Notes under the pieces: generated by a model
Databases searched by the model: none
What the model was told of the DNA's origin: nothing
Seen by the model: the letters and a program-made list of their open reading frames with translations, nothing else
Shown: piece after piece, positions 6,808 through 19,835 of the stretch
How the letters are laid out: each line of letters opens with the position of its first letter
How positions within the stretch are numbered: position 1 is the first letter of the stretch
From: Aurantiochytrium sp. KH105
Taxonomy: Eukaryota; Sar; Bigyra; Thraustochytrida; Thraustochytriidae
DNA: 64,000 bases
Reading direction: 5' to 3'
Assembly (NCBI GenBank): GCA_003116975.1
Contig: BGKB01000014.1
Span: forward strand, 80,601 to 144,600
Made by a program: the position numbers and the translations under genes

Positions 6808-8847
6808 ATGATGCGCCTCGGTATTTTGTACCTTGGCATTATTGTTGTACAGGCCTCCGACGTCTTGGCAGAAAGTAGCAGGGTATCAGCTCCGCCGAGA
6901 GAAACCTCCAGGCTCGCTTCTTCAAGTCTGGCGCGAGAAAGTCGCGAATACCTCGATGCGCACTGCGACTCACTACCATCAGATCATTTTTGCGCAGATG
7001 TTCTCGGTCAAGAGACGCTTGTGTTTCTCAACGCCGATGCCGATGCACAAGCCGAATCGGACGCAATACGTGCGCGCGTAGACGAAGTGGCAGGCGACGA
7101 TGTTTCGTGCGCGAATGCCTTCAAGACAGTCAGCTGCTATGCAAATTTTATGCCTTGTGCAAAGGCTTCAAAGGAACCTCGCAAGATATGTCGATCATCA
7201 TGCCACAGACTTTTGCAAGACTATTGCGCAAATGCGGAGTACCCGCTCGACGTGCACTGTGACTCAAGTCTGGAAGCCAACAGCCTCCTCTTCGATACTT
7301 TCTTTGCTGAAATGCGAACCGAGGACGCATTTGCTACAAGCAACACGTATATATCTCATGAGATTCTTGTCGAGTGCGCTAATGTCTTTCAGGAGGAAGA
7401 GTCGGGCATCAGCTTGCATGCTGCGAACGATACGTCCAGCGAGGCGCAGTGCCCCTGGCCTTATCGCACGCGAACTTACTCTGCCGTTGCAGATTTTGCC
7501 GCTGTTCAAGGCTCAAATCTCGATGGCTCCCCTGCCTCCTTTTTCGCAGCATGCGAGCTCCCCTGTCCAGATCAAATCGTACTCACCGACCGCCAAGACA
7601 GAATGCTGTGGATGGCGCACTGGGTACCCGGTCTCTTGAGCTTGCCGCTCAATGTCTTTATAATATCCTCCGGAATCGCACGACGCCGTGCGGCGGGGCG
7701 CATCCCGCGCAAACCACGATATCAGCTTGACGCAACGGAAATGTACATGGCATGTTTGGCGGTGGTGATTGCCGTTCTTGATGTCAGCATTGCACTCTTT
7801 CTGGGCTACGACGTTAGATGCGCGGGTCATGACACAGTGTCGCGCTTCGAAAGCCTTGGAGGGCATCCATTCTGCAAGGTAGCGCTCCTCAATGAGCATG
7901 TTCTCCAAGTTTTTGTGAGCTGTTTGGCTTTTGCCTTGGTGAAATTATGTTGTCAAGTTCATGCTGCTGTGACCGTGCAATCATATCGGCCATCGCTGTT
8001 TTTCTTGACGTCAAGGACAGTTTTTGTCATTGTCATACCCGCGACATTAGCCGGAGCCACTTTGGCAAGTCAGGTGGATCCGCTGCTCGTTCTTTCGAGC
8101 GCGTACCGCGTCAAGCAAGGGGAGAATCCAATGTTCGGTTCCATATTACCTCTCGTCTCTGCGCTTAGGTATCGGTATAGCTGCGGGCCCCAACTTCGGA
8201 CGCCAGCGCAAGCCCATCTTCTTATCGATGGCCCTCTTTTGGCGAGCGCTATTGTGGCCGCCTCAGCCTATGGATGGCTGTTTATGACCTTTCGAGGTCT
8301 GATTCAAGCAATCCACTCGGGTCACGTCAAGAGGCCTGGTGCAGCCACTCAAAGTCGTGCCCTGCTACGGCTTTCTCTCGCGACTTCGCGCTTCGCATTT
8401 GTTGCGTTGGTTTGTGTGGTCATGAGTGCTCTCAGTTTCGAGCTTTACCGGAATGTCGACAGTCTCGACGAGACTCCGGCCACTATTTTAGCGCACTGGG
8501 AAACCTGCGCCGCGTCAAACTTTCAGGACAATGCCAACACCGTTTCCCAGCTGGCCAATGCTGCCTTGCCGCTCATCCCGAAAGACTCCATCCGTTTCTG
8601 CGCTCGAGTGGGCGAGGCCATGCCTCGTGCGCCGCTGCTCGTGGCCTTTGTGCTCGCAAGAGCGTCTCCCCCGCTCGTGTTCGGGGTCGCCTTTGCCAAG
8701 CGAGCCCTGCAGCAAACGCGCTTCCGCGTCTTTCCTCGGGGACTGCAAAGCGTGCGCGTAGCCGCTGTGCGCGCCACGACCTCGCGCATCGCGACCTCGC
8801 CCACGCACGCCGCGCGACGCGGCGCCGCAGACGACCGGCCCTGCTAG
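6808..8847 (+). CDS. Frizzled-type seven-transmembrane receptor with cysteine-rich domain
   Basis: This is a 679-residue membrane receptor. Starting at the ATG at 6808 gives an immediate hydrophobic signal peptide (MMRLGILYLGIIVV...). The frame is open further upstream but begins there only with TTG, so 6808 is chosen. The ectodomain carries a Fz-like cysteine pattern: SCANAFKTVSCYANFMPC, then KICRSSC and DYC. This matches the C-x(7-9)-C-x6-C ... CR-x2-C ... C spacing of Frizzled cysteine-rich domains. A further cysteine cluster (CPWPYRT, CELPCP) precedes the first membrane helix, as in Frizzled and Smoothened proteins. Seven hydrophobic segments follow, at about residues 265-290, 315-340, 370-395, 400-425, 470-495, 525-550 and 605-635. 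The short tail lacks the KTxxxW motif that recruits Dishevelled. The ligand is unknown. Resemblance to the Dictyostelium frizzled/smoothened-like receptors is inferred. Confidence 0.8.
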   Translation: MMRLGILYLGIIVVQASDVLAESSRVSAPPRETSRLASSSLARESREYLDAHCDSLPSDHFCADVLGQETLVFLNADADAQAESDAIRARVDEVAGDDVSCANAFKTVSCYANFMPCAKASKEPRKICRSSCHRLLQDYCANAEYPLDVHCDSSLEANSLLFDTFFAEMRTEDAFATSNTYISHEILVECANVFQEEESGISLHAANDTSSEAQCPWPYRTRTYSAVADFAAVQGSNLDGSPASFFAACELPCPDQIVLTDRQDRMLWMAHWVPGLLSLPLNVFIISSGIARRRAAGRIPRKPRYQLDATEMYMACLAVVIAVLDVSIALFLGYDVRCAGHDTVSRFESLGGHPFCKVALLNEHVLQVFVSCLAFALVKLCCQVHAAVTVQSYRPSLFFLTSRTVFVIVIPATLAGATLASQVDPLLVLSSAYRVKQGENPMFGSILPLVSALRYRYSCGPQLRTPAQAHLLIDGPLLASAIVAASAYGWLFMTFRGLIQAIHSGHVKRPGAATQSRALLRLSLATSRFAFVALVCVVMSALSFELYRNVDSLDETPATILAHWETCAASNFQDNANTVSQLANAALPLIPKDSIRFCARVGEAMPRAPLLVAFVLARASPPLVFGVAFAKRALQQTRFRVFPRGLQSVRVAAVRATTSRIATSPTHAARRGAADDRPC

Positions 8848-13157: not shown

Positions 13158-16100
13158 TCAAGTTCTAGATGACAACCATGCAGCAAAGTCTCTATGGCCA
13201 GCTTGGGCAGCCACCTGCGCCGCAGTGAGTCCCTCTGCATCTGTGGCATTTGCATTGGCACCAGATGCTAAAAGCAACTCGGCCATCTCACGCTGGCCAG
13301 CGGCTGCCGCCTCGTGTAGTGGCAAGCGTCCATGAAGTTGCGTCGAAGGTTTCACCTTGCCTTGTGCAAGAAGACGGCGAGCTTGATGAACATTTCCAAA
13401 TTTTGCATACACCAGCAAAGTCTCCACCTCGGCATCGTGAAGCAAGGCCAATGATTGCTTGCGCTCTGCAGCCTGCTGAGATCGAAGGGACTTCGCCTCG
13501 CTGGCTTCGTTCTCGCCTGGCTGACTCGGGCTCGAACGCATTGGCCGAGCTGACATTAACTGAGATGCAGAGCGTGAGGGACGCAAAGTCTTTCGCTTCG
13601 TTCCGCCCCGCTTGCTGCAATTACTTGGCGTCGTACACACGTAGCTTTCATTACTGCCTGCGTCGCGAAAGTTGGCTACCTCTGTAGATAGCGCGTCGAG
13701 GAACGAGAGATTGGCGTTTATCGTGCTGCGCTGAGCACACGTTTTCCTCTTTTGTCTCGTATTTACGGTATGATGGTGACTCAACCGTTCAATTTGCGAA
13801 TCCCCAATGCGGTCCAGCGGGCGCTGCCTCGCGACCGATGGCCCCGATTTACGAAGCGGAGCAAGTGCACTGACTTTCACACTCTGTCGTTGCCCGGTCT
13901 TGTTAAGCGTTTTCTTGCGCTTTGGTGTTTTTGTCATCCGTCGTTTGGAGTTGGAACCAAGCGATGACTTGAAGGAGGGAACCGACTCCAGCTGTAGCCG
14001 GGGCCTCGACGTAGCACGTGTCAAGTCCTCGCCTGATGTACCTTCAGTGGGCACCTTTCTGCTATGCCTCCGTCCATCCTTGGATGCCCGTTTCTGCAAT
14101 TTCTTCGCAATCCCTTCTTTTGATGTGCCCTTTTCGGTTCTGTCCTCTCGAGACTCATCCCAATCATCGACGTCGCTATCGTCATCTTCTTCTTCCACGT
14201 TGGTAAGGCCTGCTCGCTTGCGTTCTGCCGTTCGTCGGCGCGATGGTGGGCGAGAATGCAAGGCTCCACTGCCTGGAGCATCGGAGACAGTATGCATGCT
14301 TGGCGAAAGCATGTCCAAAACGCTTCTGGAGCTTTGCGATGGCTCTTGCTCGCGAGACAGTAAAGGATTTACGTCGTCGTGGACCCCATAACTCAGCCTT
14401 CGAAGCATTCGTCCAGCGGCCGTTTTCACTTTGCTCAGGATCTCTGGATTAAGGTTCGTCAAGAGGTCCTGGTCCCACGCGCGGCTGGGATCGTGCTTGG
14501 CAATTTCGCAGGCTACACAAGACAAATCAATACTGTACACTCTGGTCTTGCCGTGTCTGGGGCATTCCCCGTATCCCTGACTTACCGAAAAGGAGATTTC
14601 GTCGAGCGCCTCGTCGCGAAACGCGCGGTCAGCCATGTTGACGAACTCTTCCCAGGAAATGAGCCCCGATGCATCAACGTCGTATCGCTCAAACTTTTCA
14701 TTCGCTCGTGCAGAGGCACCTAACCACATGCAGAGATGCGCGTGCATTTCGCGCAAAGACCAGTCTGCAAAAGCTTTGCTGTAGATGGCGCGCGGATCTT
14801 CCAGAGTCTGACGCTGTCGCACGTACGCTCGGAGCTCCGCAGCATCGAGACGCCCATTCTGGTCAATGTCAATGCACGCCCAAATACGCGCGTACGCTCG
14901 GAAGCGGAGGTACCGTCGCACTACTGCGTCTTTCTTCACCCGGCGCGAGAACAACCCAAGCGACCATGCCTTGGCCGCTGATGCATTATCACACTCACTT
15001 GTCTTCTCCGTCGCCTGGACTTCGACGCCGTCTTCATGAGGCACCAAGGAGCTGGTCTGCAGGGCGAGCTCCTTGGCTCTGTGCTGTAGGTAGAGCAAAA
15101 AGGTATCCTTGGTGAAAACCATGCACTCTGACGCGCGCCGGCGCGCAATTCTGCTCAGATTACCATCTTGCATGTCGTCGGCAAAGGTCTTCATACGAGG
15201 ATCCTGCAGCATTGCCACGATTGTCGCCCAGTCGAGCTCGTCCTCTCCTGCATCTGCCGCGCCTGCAGATTGGGCAAGTAAAGATGTCGTTGATGTTTCT
15301 GTCTCGCTGGTTCCCTGTGCATCGTCACGCAAATTCTGGTTTGCGTGGTTCTGGTTCTTGGCGCGCTTCATTGCTTCTGCAATTAAAGTAGCGCGAGACA
15401 CGGGAAGACCCTCACAGGCTTCTTGGACGTCTTCGAAGAACGCCGCGGCCTGCTCCCATGCTTCCGCGGAATCGAGGACCACAGAAGCCCCCGCGCCTGC
15501 ATGGCCCATGGCGACCACCTCCTGAATCACCTGCGAAGTTTCTTTCAAAATGGGGGCCTGACCATGAAGTCTCTCCGTTTCTCTTCCCTGATGGAAGGGT
15601 CTCCGTGCTGCATGCGCTCGCCATCGTTGTGAAGGTCTTGTTTCAGATACATCCGTGCTGGGGAGAGTGCCAGGAGGACCATCGCTTGCTTGGCCGTTTC
15701 CGGTGCCTTGGGCCATACTTTTGTCGCCATCGTCATCACTTTTTGACGCCAATCGCTGCTGGCCTGCCACGATGCTCGAAATCCATGATTCCGGCAGAGG
15801 GCGGACGTCAAAATAGTTGGGCGGCAGATGCAAAACAGCTCCGTCGACTGCAAGGGGCATGCCCGGGTCGAGCTCGGTGAGATGAAGACCATCTCGAATG
15901 ATTCCAATCGCACAGCGAAGGAGTGGCGCCTCTCCATGGCCGCTTGCCGCTTCTGAAGAAGGATGCAAGCGCAGGTCAAAGTTGACGAGGCTGTGTCTTG
16001 CGAACGAGGCGAGAAAGCGCGTCAAAAAGAGCTCGCCGTGATATTCGATGGACTGAGGCATTTCTTCCTTGTCAACACCCTCGTGCCTCGAAAGCTTTAC

Positions 16101-19100
16101 CACCAGCGGTTGCATGAAGAGCTGTTGCAGGCCAACTCTGCTAGCCATAAAGTAATGAACACGAATCTGACGGACAGTGCATACCGAGTCTTTTCCTGTG
16201 CCTCGTGAGACAGGAATGCTCACAGTCCCAGCCCAGGGATGGAACCTGTACTGCAGGTCAAGCTTTTCACCAGGAAGACCAACAATGTCTCGCAAAAAGA
16301 TCGTGAGACGGAACTGAAGTCGAGCATGAGCCGGGTTGAGTTTGGTTTCTCGAGCGTCTTTTGCTGCTGCAACGCCTGCTGTGGTGGATGTCATCTTTAG
16401 CGACTCTGTTTTTGGCCGATACATGTCTTCTTCAGACCCGCAAAAAATATATCCAGCCCGCGACCCAGGCTTGGCGCCGTAGCTTGGGGCTCCTGGAATA
16501 ATGATTTTCGGTTGCGAATCTCCATCGTACACCTCTGTCTGTCCTGCGTTGCGTTCCGAGTCGGCGCGAGCTCGAGCATCTTGGCCCGAGCTTGCCACAC
16601 GCTCGAGCAAGGCCCGCGTTGAAGGGTTGGTGGGGTCTTTGACATTTGCTTTTTTCTTCCTTGCATTGACCTTGGTCCTGGAGGCCTTTGCGGGTGTCTC
16701 AGCTCGAGTTGGACTGCGGACTTGATTTCCATGATTTTTCTGCGCACGGATATTCTGCGGAAGCCACGAGGCTCCAATTTCTTTTCCAGTATGGACTAGA
16801 GTTTCGTTGGCTTCCCAAAGAGCATGACAGAGTTTACAGACCTGGAACGAGTTCCCCACAGCAGCGGAGGACCCAGGCACAAGGATTCCGTTTTCGAATC
16901 GAGATTCATTCCGCGCAAAAAGACAATTGTCAAAAGCAACAACGCGGCGCCCGCGAAGCATAAGCTGCGTCCTTAGAACTCGAGCTAGAACACTCGTCAT
17001 TTCAAAGTTGGTTTTCGCTGCGGACTCTTCAGGCTTTTTCTGTTTTGGATTATCCGGCTTTTTTCGTTTCTGTTCCGAAGTACTGATTTCGTTGCTTCCC
17101 TCCGCGGAGGTAGCTTCGCTGACTGTCGGAAATTGCTCCACTGCTGAAGACGTCGCAGCCGATACCTGATTTGTATCACGGGGACGACAAGGGACTTTCT
17201 CGTCGGGGAGAATCGGCCTGCTGCACATCGCACAAAGACGACGCGTTCCATTTGCGCGTAAAGAACGAGCACCGTTGCGTTCGTACCCATGTTGACGCCG
17301 GACATACTGTCTTCTTTGCTTGTTGTGCACTTCTTCGTCTTCTGAATCGTAGTAATCCCCTTGCGCTTCGCGACGATGGCGAATTTCGAGTTCGACTTGA
17401 TGGGCCTCGCGATACGCTTCGGGGGTCAACTCAAAGCCTCGTACATTGGTGAGAATCCACTCGTCGCTCTTGGATCGCATTAAGTCACACTGAAGTTGCT
17501 CAAAGGCAAACTTGCGAAGTCCATATTCGCGCCCGATGGACGCTTCGAGGTGGCGCGCAATGCGCGTGAGCGCCTCGTGTACCTGGCTGACAGCCACATT
17601 TGCAACTTTGAAGATTGTAGTTTTGTCCGTATCCGCAGAGCCCGGGCAAAACCATTCGGAGAGTAAACGTTCCTCGAAGAAATGCTGTGCTTGTGGCACT
17701 GTGACTAAACGCTCATCTGAGCTGTCCTCATTTTGATTTTTTGAGTTTTGCGTCGATTGGCCATGGTCATGGCGAAGAACGTCCGCGTCTTGTCGCGCAT
17801 GCGCGTCTCTGCTGGCCTCTCGAAAAGTGCGTGAAGCGGTAATATTGACAACGATAGGCAGCTTGTCACGGCGCCACGTCGCGCGATAAACGGACGGCTT
17901 GGCCCCTTTGGGGTTCACAAATCTCTGCACCACGCAGATGTTCGGGCGTTGTTCTAGTCTACCGAGAAGTGTTGCAGCATTCACAAGTCGTGTCTCCGAG
18001 CCCTCAACATGAAGCCAAGACGGGAACTTGAGAACGGCCACAATTGGTTCGTGCTCGACGCCAACAGGGCGTGCTTCTGCAAGCCACTTTTTACATAGCG
18101 TTTCCTCCCACGCATCAGCCTCGAGAGAACTTGTCACCATTCCCTGGGCCTTGGAGCTGAAACGTAGCAAAACGCGTCGCCCCTGCCTTCCAAAGACGGC
18201 AGTGTCAGGCATGCGAACGTGAAGCACGCCATCACGGCGGTGTCGTCGGAGCCCGTTTTGCACGCCAGCGCCTGATGCATGCTTTCGCGTCAGACTACTT
18301 TTTGGCTTGCTGGAAAGCGGCTGAAGATGAAAAAGCATCCCGGGGCCAGGGCCAAATGGCAGACCATCGTAATATGACCTTTCCGCATGAATTCGCGATG
18401 GACCTACCTCGCGCACGACGGGCCGCGTTGGTGCTTCGCCCTTTGCTTGCAGCTTGAGCTCCTCGTTGTGTCGTGAAAAGAGAGCATTTTCGTCGAGTTC
18501 ATCGCTACTTTCGTCATCGGAGAGAGCGGTAAAGAAAACTGTCTCTGGCCTGGTGGGACGATCGTTCTGACCGTGCTCGTTTACGTCGCTGTCGTTTTCT
18601 TCAGAATCACTCGAAGCTACTTTTTCCGTCCCGAGCTGATCGTCACGCCGTCGACCATTGCTTACGTCATCGTTATCGTCGCTGTCGTCGTCGTAGTTGC
18701 TGTCTTCAGCAAACGCCTGGCTATCGTCGTCGTTGCCATCGTGGTAGTGGTGTTTGTCGACGTTTCCGTCGTCGTCGTCAGCATCTACAACAGCTTCACC
18801 TTTGCACGTCGCGGTTGCAAGGTCACTTTCGCTGACGAAATCATCTTCTTCGCAATCTTTGCTACTCTCGTCGCGGTCCACATAGCTGTTGGTGTTGTAC
18901 GGAGAGGCTTGCTGACTTTCTGGGCCCCTGAATGCCTGGTGCTGGTGCTGCGCAATATCTGTCTTGCCAGGACCGCAGAACGATGCGCCGGAGGGGATCG
19001 CAAAGCACTCTTCGTCATCGCGCGGCGACGCCATCGCTCGCGCCCATGCGTTTCTGGCGCCAGCCTGCAACCCCCCTCCTCCTCCTCCGGTGCCCAACGC

Positions 19101-19148
19101 GCGCAGAGAGATTTGCTCGCTTTTACCAACCACCTGCTCGCGTTGCAT
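13158..19148 (-). CDS. Giant protein with two EF-hands and C-terminal ankyrin repeats
   Basis: This single-exon protein is 1996 residues from the ATG at 19148. Alternatives are ATG 19034 (1958 residues, good context) and ATG 19451 (2097 residues). The last would add a low-complexity Gly/Arg stretch that looks like translated promoter, and the frame beyond opens only with GTG. Order of parts: an Asp/Glu/Ser-rich acidic N-terminal quarter; a conserved-looking globular block containing LGRLEQRPNICVVQRF; a CxxC pair (RLCAMCSRPILPDEKVPC) that may bind zinc; and a beta-rich segment near residues 1000-1200 with C2-like hydrophobic strands. Two canonical EF-hand loops follow, DIDQNGRLDAAE and DVDASGLISWEE (about residues 1420-1505). 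A basic serine-rich linker comes next, then ankyrin repeats in the last 85 residues (GRLPLHEAAAAGQREMAELLLASG). It is probably a calcium-responsive scaffold. The family is not recognised. Confidence 0.8.
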   Translation of the reverse strand: MQREQVVGKSEQISLRALGTGGGGGGLQAGARNAWARAMASPRDDEECFAIPSGASFCGPGKTDIAQHQHQAFRGPESQQASPYNTNSYVDRDESSKDCEEDDFVSESDLATATCKGEAVVDADDDDGNVDKHHYHDGNDDDSQAFAEDSNYDDDSDDNDDVSNGRRRDDQLGTEKVASSDSEENDSDVNEHGQNDRPTRPETVFFTALSDDESSDELDENALFSRHNEELKLQAKGEAPTRPVVREVGPSRIHAERSYYDGLPFGPGPGMLFHLQPLSSKPKSSLTRKHASGAGVQNGLRRHRRDGVLHVRMPDTAVFGRQGRRVLLRFSSKAQGMVTSSLEADAWEETLCKKWLAEARPVGVEHEPIVAVLKFPSWLHVEGSETRLVNAATLLGRLEQRPNICVVQRFVNPKGAKPSVYRATWRRDKLPIVVNITASRTFREASRDAHARQDADVLRHDHGQSTQNSKNQNEDSSDERLVTVPQAQHFFEERLLSEWFCPGSADTDKTTIFKVANVAVSQVHEALTRIARHLEASIGREYGLRKFAFEQLQCDLMRSKSDEWILTNVRGFELTPEAYREAHQVELEIRHRREAQGDYYDSEDEEVHNKQRRQYVRRQHGYERNGARSLRANGTRRLCAMCSRPILPDEKVPCRPRDTNQVSAATSSAVEQFPTVSEATSAEGSNEISTSEQKRKKPDNPKQKKPEESAAKTNFEMTSVLARVLRTQLMLRGRRVVAFDNCLFARNESRFENGILVPGSSAAVGNSFQVCKLCHALWEANETLVHTGKEIGASWLPQNIRAQKNHGNQVRSPTRAETPAKASRTKVNARKKKANVKDPTNPSTRALLERVASSGQDARARADSERNAGQTEVYDGDSQPKIIIPGAPSYGAKPGSRAGYIFCGSEEDMYRPKTESLKMTSTTAGVAAAKDARETKLNPAHARLQFRLTIFLRDIVGLPGEKLDLQYRFHPWAGTVSIPVSRGTGKDSVCTVRQIRVHYFMASRVGLQQLFMQPLVVKLSRHEGVDKEEMPQSIEYHGELFLTRFLASFARHSLVNFDLRLHPSSEAASGHGEAPLLRCAIGIIRDGLHLTELDPGMPLAVDGAVLHLPPNYFDVRPLPESWISSIVAGQQRLASKSDDDGDKSMAQGTGNGQASDGPPGTLPSTDVSETRPSQRWRAHAARRPFHQGRETERLHGQAPILKETSQVIQEVVAMGHAGAGASVVLDSAEAWEQAAAFFEDVQEACEGLPVSRATLIAEAMKRAKNQNHANQNLRDDAQGTSETETSTTSLLAQSAGAADAGEDELDWATIVAMLQDPRMKTFADDMQDGNLSRIARRRASECMVFTKDTFLLYLQHRAKELALQTSSLVPHEDGVEVQATEKTSECDNASAAKAWSLGLFSRRVKKDAVVRRYLRFRAYARIWACIDIDQNGRLDAAELRAYVRQRQTLEDPRAIYSKAFADWSLREMHAHLCMWLGASARANEKFERYDVDASGLISWEEFVNMADRAFRDEALDEISFSVSQGYGECPRHGKTRVYSIDLSCVACEIAKHDPSRAWDQDLLTNLNPEILSKVKTAAGRMLRRLSYGVHDDVNPLLSREQEPSQSSRSVLDMLSPSMHTVSDAPGSGALHSRPPSRRRTAERKRAGLTNVEEEDDDSDVDDWDESREDRTEKGTSKEGIAKKLQKRASKDGRRHSRKVPTEGTSGEDLTRATSRPRLQLESVPSFKSSLGSNSKRRMTKTPKRKKTLNKTGQRQSVKVSALAPLRKSGPSVARQRPLDRIGDSQIERLSHHHTVNTRQKRKTCAQRSTINANLSFLDALSTEVANFRDAGSNESYVCTTPSNCSKRGGTKRKTLRPSRSASQLMSARPMRSSPSQPGENEASEAKSLRSQQAAERKQSLALLHDAEVETLLVYAKFGNVHQARRLLAQGKVKPSTQLHGRLPLHEAAAAGQREMAELLLASGANANATDAEGLTAAQVAAQAGHRDFAAWLSSRT

Positions 19149-19835
19149 CGCACCGCTTTGCAGACTCTTCACTCTTTTACCGTTATGCAAGGCCCAGTAC
19201 ACACCTGGGTCCCCGCGCGTACCAGTCAGCTTTAACCTCCCTCTGTCCCCTCCTCGCCTCCCTCGCTCCCCTTGGGGCACCGACTCGGCCCGGAGCAGCC
19301 CGAACTCGGCGCTGCCGCCCGCGCCCTCTGGCTCGGATCGCGCGTGCGCTCGGGCCGCCGCACACCCTCCCTCCCTCCCTCCCTGCCTCCCTCCCTGCCG
19401 GCGGGGCCAGCGCGTGCACACGCGTGCGGCGGCACGGCGCGGCCCAGCCATCCACAGAGAGAGCACTTTCGCACCTTGCGAACTAGAAAGGTGTGCGCCT
19501 GCCTGCTGCTCTGCTTTATACCACTCGCTCGACTTTAGCGCAGCGAGGTCGGTCGACCCGCCGCCACGCGACGCGCGCAGACTCGCAACGCGGCGCCCCC
19601 GCGCGCGCTCGCTCGCGCACGCCGGGACCGCCGGCGACGCGGCAGGCCCAGCGCGGAGCCGCCGGCGCGCATCGTGCTCGGTCGGGCGCGTGGGCGAGCG
19701 AGCCCTCGGGCGCGTGCGCGCTTGTTATACCTCCTCGCGGCTGCCCCGGCTCGAAGACTTCACGCGCGCGGAGGGCGCAAGGTCGCGCTCGCGGCCTCAT
19801 AAGACGCTCCACAGAGAGAAGGAGAGAAAGGCCTC
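19149..19835. promoter_or_regulatory. Divergent GC-rich spacer
   Basis: This lies between the giant EF-hand gene (minus) and the single-span membrane protein (plus). It is very GC-rich with a CCCT run at about 19366-19398. Long frames here are low-complexity Arg/Ala/Pro and are not supported. Part may be the 5' end of the giant gene if its upstream ATG at 19451 is used. Confidence 0.4.

Follow-up and report, generated by a model that had tools for sequence, protein, structure and literature searches.

An open reading frame at positions 6808..8847 of the window (the whole 64,000-nucleotide stretch of Aurantiochytrium sp. KH105 contig BGKB01000014.1 that was analyzed) was predicted to encode a Frizzled-like receptor, with an Fz-type cysteine-rich domain (CRD) placed ahead of a seven-helix membrane region (7TM). 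Thraustochytrids are members of the Labyrinthulomycetes within the Stramenopiles. The preferred reading, given a probability of roughly 0.6, is that of a Frizzled-like thraustochytrid receptor in which the outer CRD would sense a ligand, the 7TM would be a diverged class F bundle, and output would pass through G proteins with no Dishevelled contact. The signal peptide would direct the receptor outward, and the extracellular CRD would bind a ligand that is most likely a lipid, a lipid-bearing molecule, or another hydrophobic molecule. The cysteine-bearing hinge would then relay the change to the N-out seven-helix bundle, and the basic inner loops would couple to heterotrimeric G proteins, the Frizzled-Dishevelled contact not being used. 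The six paralogous genes to which this one belongs would retain a class F bundle that is probably very diverged. The outer half of the receptor is Frizzled-like in its working, and the layout as a whole probably is as well.

The coding sequence (6808..8847, + strand, as are all features below) ran from ATG to TAG, specified 679 amino acids plus the stop, and was intronless in the present reading. A hydrophobic peak at residues 4 to 22 marked a putative signal peptide (residues 1 to 21; 6808..6870), with cleavage placed by eye after VLA. The CRD (residues 53 to 151; 6964..7260) was followed by a hinge or linker to the membrane (residues 152 to 262; 7261..7593) containing cysteines 190, 215, 249, and 253. 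Behind the signal-peptide-like N terminus, hydropathy gave exactly seven peaks at the threshold used: TM1 (residues 273 to 291; 7624..7680), TM2 (314 to 332; 7747..7803), TM3 (364 to 382; 7897..7953), TM4 (397 to 415; 7996..8052), TM5 (477 to 495; 8236..8292), TM6 (529 to 547; 8392..8448), and TM7 (610 to 628; 8635..8691). A cytoplasmic tail, basic by its charge, completed the protein (residues 629 to 679; 8692..8844). Net charges were +5, +1, +6, and +7 for loops 1, 3, and 5 and the C-terminal tail. The flank N-terminal to TM1 had a net charge of −2, and loops 2, 4, and 6 had −1, +2, and −2, respectively; loop cysteines were confined to the outer loops (two, one, and two in loops 2, 4, and 6, respectively). 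The charge alternation and outer cysteines constitute an N-out, C-in 7TM pattern, with the N-out seven-helix assignment based on hydropathy and charge only. The signal peptide, Fz-like cysteine array, and seven hydrophobic segments reported in the first-pass annotation were all confirmed by hydropathy and cysteine spacing.

At the level of sequence comparison, the presence of an Fz-type CRD in the window protein is established. Its cysteines (C53, C62, C101, C110, C117, C128, C132, C140, and C151) were spaced with gaps of 8/38/8/6/10/3/7, matching the core cysteine gaps of FZD8 (8/6/10/3/6). Nine of the 10 canonical CRD cysteines were present in order and spacing (the canonical spacing being that of FZD8), and the next cysteine, C190, lay far off. 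The CRD had originally been placed at residues 60 to 230; its Fz type was upheld, and its extent was revised to about residues 53 to 151, within which the nine canonical cysteines are in register. Ten conserved cysteines are described as typical of Frizzled CRDs in the part of PMC3251606 drawn on here. The core cysteine pattern occurred once in 127,996 six-frame window residues; when the 262-residue ectodomain was shuffled 200,000 times, 8 of the shuffled sequences contained it, a generous figure because the pattern was chosen after the family had been viewed.

The Fz profile, which the first-pass annotation had proposed as a check, matched residues 60 to 143 of the window protein (PF01392; E = 2.4e-5; 25.3 bits), a score short of the curated cut-off of 32.1. 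Among the paralogues (G2 to G6, the window gene being G1), E values for the same model were 1e-5 (G2), 4.6e-5 (G3), 5e-5 (G5), 1.1e-4 (G6), and 0.0055 (G4), and the core cysteine pattern was present in five of the six genes, G4 being one cysteine short. The six CRDs were combined into a profile (A3, with G6 incomplete) and run against 177,635 PDB sequences; the 34 sequences matched at E ≤ 10 were without exception from Fz-type CRD proteins. The best matches were ROR2 (1.3e-8), which carries an Fz-type CRD, sFRP3 (6e-4), and MuSK (0.0033), followed by FZD8, 5, 10, 4, 2, 7, and 1. An ectodomain that is instead a cousin of the Fz fold, of the folate receptor, RECK, or NPC1 type, would make the Frizzled label misleading. 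The RECK Fz-like model did match the window protein (9.5e-5), and a separate CRD protein of this genome, L025, weakly matched Folate_rec (0.002); with Fz ranking first among the Pfam models that matched the window protein and neither the folate receptor nor NPC1 among the 34 PDB matches, this explanation was considered very unlikely. AlphaFold2 models made without relatives were of low confidence for both the CRD (pLDDT, 46.7) and the whole protein (pLDDT, 38). A fold search with the CRD model returned unrelated low-scoring chains only, with no Fz structure, and was uninformative either way.

Searches of the genome itself (76 Mb; 367 contigs) located six CRD-7TM genes, each on two contigs: G1 on C14/C31, G4 on C31/C14, the adjoining G2 and G3 on C176/C3, and the adjoining G5 and G6 on C190/C13. 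This pairing suggests a phased diploid or duplicated genome. The second copy of the window gene (C31:125223-127250) was 96% identical to the first, and 44 synonymous and 33 nonsynonymous changes were counted over 676 codons (dS, 0.093; dN, 0.022; dN/dS, 0.235); this pair, the only one of the six measured, is under purifying selection. A chance open frame or a decaying gene, in whose favor the below-cut-off Pfam Fz score is the sole point, is extremely improbable against the 96% identical second copy with its dN/dS of 0.24, the five paralogues with the same layout, and the rarity of the cysteine pattern in shuffles. With G4 as the query, G1, G2, and G3 were matched at 3.5e-7 to 3.6e-4; with G5 as the query, G3 was matched at 6.4e-6 and G2 only at 0.1 to 0.35. 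G2 and G3 each contained one predicted intron, located behind the CRD. Among the paralogues compared, G2, G3, and G4 had a charge pattern like that of the window protein, and G4 had cysteines also in two inner loops. At the same hydropathy threshold, G5 showed six membrane peaks, not seven, and G2 showed one weak extra peak in the ectodomain.

The initial description of a Frizzled-type receptor held for an Fz CRD on a seven-helix membrane protein and was not supported for a class F 7TM, for which neither a PF01534 match nor a PDB match to a G protein-coupled receptor (GPCR) was obtained. In direct Pfam scans, the Frizzled 7TM profile (PF01534), likewise proposed as a check, gave no hit to the window protein at any E up to 10 and none to the five paralogues. 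In a PF01534 search of the genome itself, none of G1 to G6 was among the three places found at E ≤ 10; match lists from such searches are lower bounds because this one missed the second copy of another gene, G7. No other 7TM class matched the window protein, and a best match to such a class, which the first-pass annotation had set against its own reading, was not obtained; only G4 had weak Pfam matches, to CbiM (0.025) and to the fungal GPCR model Git3 (0.054). Searches of PDB with an alignment of the 7TM parts of G1 to G6 (A2) and with a narrower 7TM profile (A4) returned no GPCR and one unrelated match each (E = 0.26 and 0.17, respectively), and G5 alone returned no match. Scans of viral and bacterial/archaeal collections with a three-sequence 7TM alignment (A1) gave 25 and 69 pattern matches, respectively, none confirmed as relatives.

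Residues typical of class F were considered individually. H4.46 and W4.50 are conserved in class F (PMC11358414), and no histidine or tryptophan was found in or beside TM4 of the window protein as read without a class F alignment. Cysteines in the hinge and two in ECL3 also characterize class F (PMC7442489); in the window protein, ECL3 contains two and the hinge, as bounded here, contains four instead of three or five, which is supportive and not diagnostic. Invariant cysteines in A2 were located in the hinge (C249), at the top of TM3 (the adjoining outer cysteine 356), in ECL2 (cysteine 459, ahead of TM5), and at two positions in ECL3 (cysteines 567 and 598, after TM6), and invariant prolines were found in TM1, TM4 (proline 411), and ECL2. 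An ECL1 cysteine in register was common to G1 to G3 only.

The three places matched by PF01534 in this genome at E ≤ 10 corresponded to G7 (C5) and two copies of G8 (C13/C188). G7 (L028:2779-6183; 1,135-residue frame; second copy on C21) has a very long cysteine-rich ectodomain that matched Fz only at 0.55. For its 7TM (C5:139255-140457), PF01534 was the best model (3e-9), with the secretin model at 1e-5 and human FZD1 at 3.7e-8 (phmmer), and G7 is by these matches the strongest candidate for class F encountered in the genome. G8 matched Dicty_CAR at 2e-18, and cAMP-receptor-like is the better description for it. A large cysteine-rich ectodomain and a 7TM are common to G7 and the window protein, but only the 7TM of G7 matches PF01534. 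On G7, A2 reached a score of 21.4 bits with TM5, TM6, and ECL3 in register and was equaled by 1 of 400 local shuffles, whereas for A4 on G7, 166 of 400 local shuffles were as good. On an FZD1 fragment, A2 was matched by 259 of 400 shuffles, and no score was obtained with A4; for G8, A2 was reached by 15 of 400 shuffles and A4 by 127 of 400. The hhalign comparison of A2 with G7 gave a P of 0.0036, and 1 of 12 local shuffles gave 0.0042. Across Pfam, PDB phmmer/hmmsearch, and hhalign, the profile tests on the 7TM part disagree on class F.

Because the layout and one of several sequence tests favor it, class F ancestry of the 7TM is suggested and put no more strongly; this bundle probably belongs to class F in a very diverged form. 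Since the searches for PF01534, for the TM4 residues, and for KTxxxW were all negative, the window receptor was not filed under class F. A domain chimera, in which an Fz CRD is fused to a 7TM of another GPCR class or a lineage-specific one and the likeness to Frizzled is architectural only, would fit both the lack of any class F match for the 7TM parts of G1 to G6 in direct searches and the shuffling of Fz CRDs in this genome, where they occur in a NIPA-transporter-like protein and a single-anchor protein. It was treated as possible but tentative, since the cysteines in the hinge, TM3 top, ECL2, and ECL3 are kept in all six CRD-7TM genes and A2 leans toward the class F-like G7 over shuffles. 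Other Fz-type CRDs were also observed. One (L030:2373-4307; C178, copy on C74; 2.1e-6) shares a predicted protein with a NIPA magnesium-transporter domain (1.4e-25), a combination that is unusual. Another (L025:988-4080, − strand; C128, copy on C134; 4.5e-6) lay in a 1,031-residue frame that has a long charged tail and, as judged by eye, one apparent membrane anchor. A further one (L026:3344-4396, − strand; C98, copy on C89; 1.1e-6) lay in a 351-residue frame that probably represents a single exon of a longer gene.

The KTxxxW Dishevelled motif, described earlier as lacking after the last helix, was absent from every one of the nine sequences scanned, which came from eight genes including the window gene; the G2 tail contained KSRRVW further along. 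KTxxxW is not universal in such receptors because most frizzled/smoothened-like (Fsl) proteins of Dictyostelium discoideum lack it, with FslJ and FslK the only ones keeping it in the portion of PMC10445921 used. The suggestion of signaling without canonical Wnt fits the search of this genome with the Wnt model (PF00110), which gave 0 matches at E ≤ 1 with 2 candidates scored and had no positive control; none of 14 controls gave a signal, so the lack of Wnt is tentative. DIX matches were found at six places forming three pairs (L048:1138-2505 on C137/C124, L050:631-2586 on C57/C77, and a third pair on C242/C48). PDZ and DEP were absent from the two DIX frames scanned (one each from two pairs, as open frames with introns not modeled), one frame containing DIX alone and the other DIX with a weak C-terminal J-domain match (0.026). 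DIX proteins are already known in SAR, according to the available part of PMC12077222.

G-alpha matches numbered 46 in this genome, 27 of them above the cut-off. These were on C245/C314, C38/C160, and other contigs, with several clustered on one contig and one pair containing an in-frame TGA. Thraustochytrids are reported to be enriched in G proteins and GPCRs (PMC6050695, in excerpt); with the many G-alpha matches and this published enrichment, we therefore infer that G-protein coupling is the likeliest output. The window receptor most likely signals via G proteins and not via Dishevelled.

The window protein has in common with animal Frizzled receptors (FZD1-10; class F; PF01392 plus PF01534) a signal peptide, the Fz CRD cysteine spacing, a cysteine-bearing hinge, N-out seven helices, and outer-loop cysteines. 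Unlike those receptors, it has no PF01534 match in its 7TM, no KTxxxW, and no H4.46/W4.50 seen in TM4, and its genome yielded no Wnt match in a search without a positive control. The amoebal Fsl receptors are closest in kind to the window receptor: they also occur in protists, some combine a CRD with a 7TM, and they have undergone lineage-specific expansion, but they were identified via the Frizzled domain IPR000539 and BLASTp, whereas PF01534 does not match the window family (PMC10445921, as far as the excerpt goes). The Frizzled-like receptors of early-diverging fungi (class XVII) likewise join Fz and Frizzled domains outside animals but belong to another supergroup and, unlike the window family, are recognized by PF01534 (PMC3251606 and PMC13308352, both in part). 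The PF01534 receptors of Halocafeteria seosinensis resemble the window family in being from a stramenopile and of possible Frizzled affinity, but only the membrane region is named and no Fz CRD is mentioned in the pertinent passage of PMC5447177.

The proposed extension of range stood in that the gene is from a protist outside animals, amoebae, and fungi; its novelty is lessened by the accounts of Halocafeteria (PMC5447177), a ciliate (PMC9960496), and Krishnan et al. (PMC3251606), each seen in part. The relevant section of the ciliate survey mentions, in ambiguous wording, one candidate for family F (PMC9960496). In the part of PMC3251606 at hand, Krishnan et al. (2012) reported no Frizzled in alveolates or plants yet estimated that it predates the unikont split, with no non-unikont sequence presented. 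A 2025 survey, again in excerpt, placed the origin of Frizzled possibly in the opisthokont-amoebozoan ancestor and treated four Syssomonas sequences cautiously (PMC12716839). No report of an Fz CRD with a 7TM in a stramenopile was found in the literature searched, which mostly excluded subscription papers, and an earlier report is quite possible. The Frizzled-like design may extend beyond animals, fungi, and amoebae. It is doubtful, but conceivable, that an Fz CRD with a class F-derived 7TM predates the split between the animal/fungal/amoebal lineage and SAR, and that the thraustochytrid branch retained and expanded it with G-protein output and with neither Wnt nor Dishevelled, beside free-standing DIX. 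If that were true, components that were only later assembled into the Wnt pathway would be visible, still separate, in thraustochytrids. A stramenopile Fz CRD-7TM family together with a recognizable Frizzled-like 7TM gene would supply non-unikont sequences, which would argue for either early origin or transfer, and a thraustochytrid would be a system for studying what is sensed by Fz CRDs in an organism in which no Wnt has been found.

Other features of the genome and window were observed. Polyketide-type polyunsaturated fatty acid synthases include the enzyme pfaD, which among eukaryotes is associated with thraustochytrids; in this genome, two contig pairs carry long open frames that matched pfaD (1.2e-212 and 4.5e-204). 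In the window, a long open frame at 13158-19466 (− strand) contained EF hands and C-terminal ankyrin repeats.
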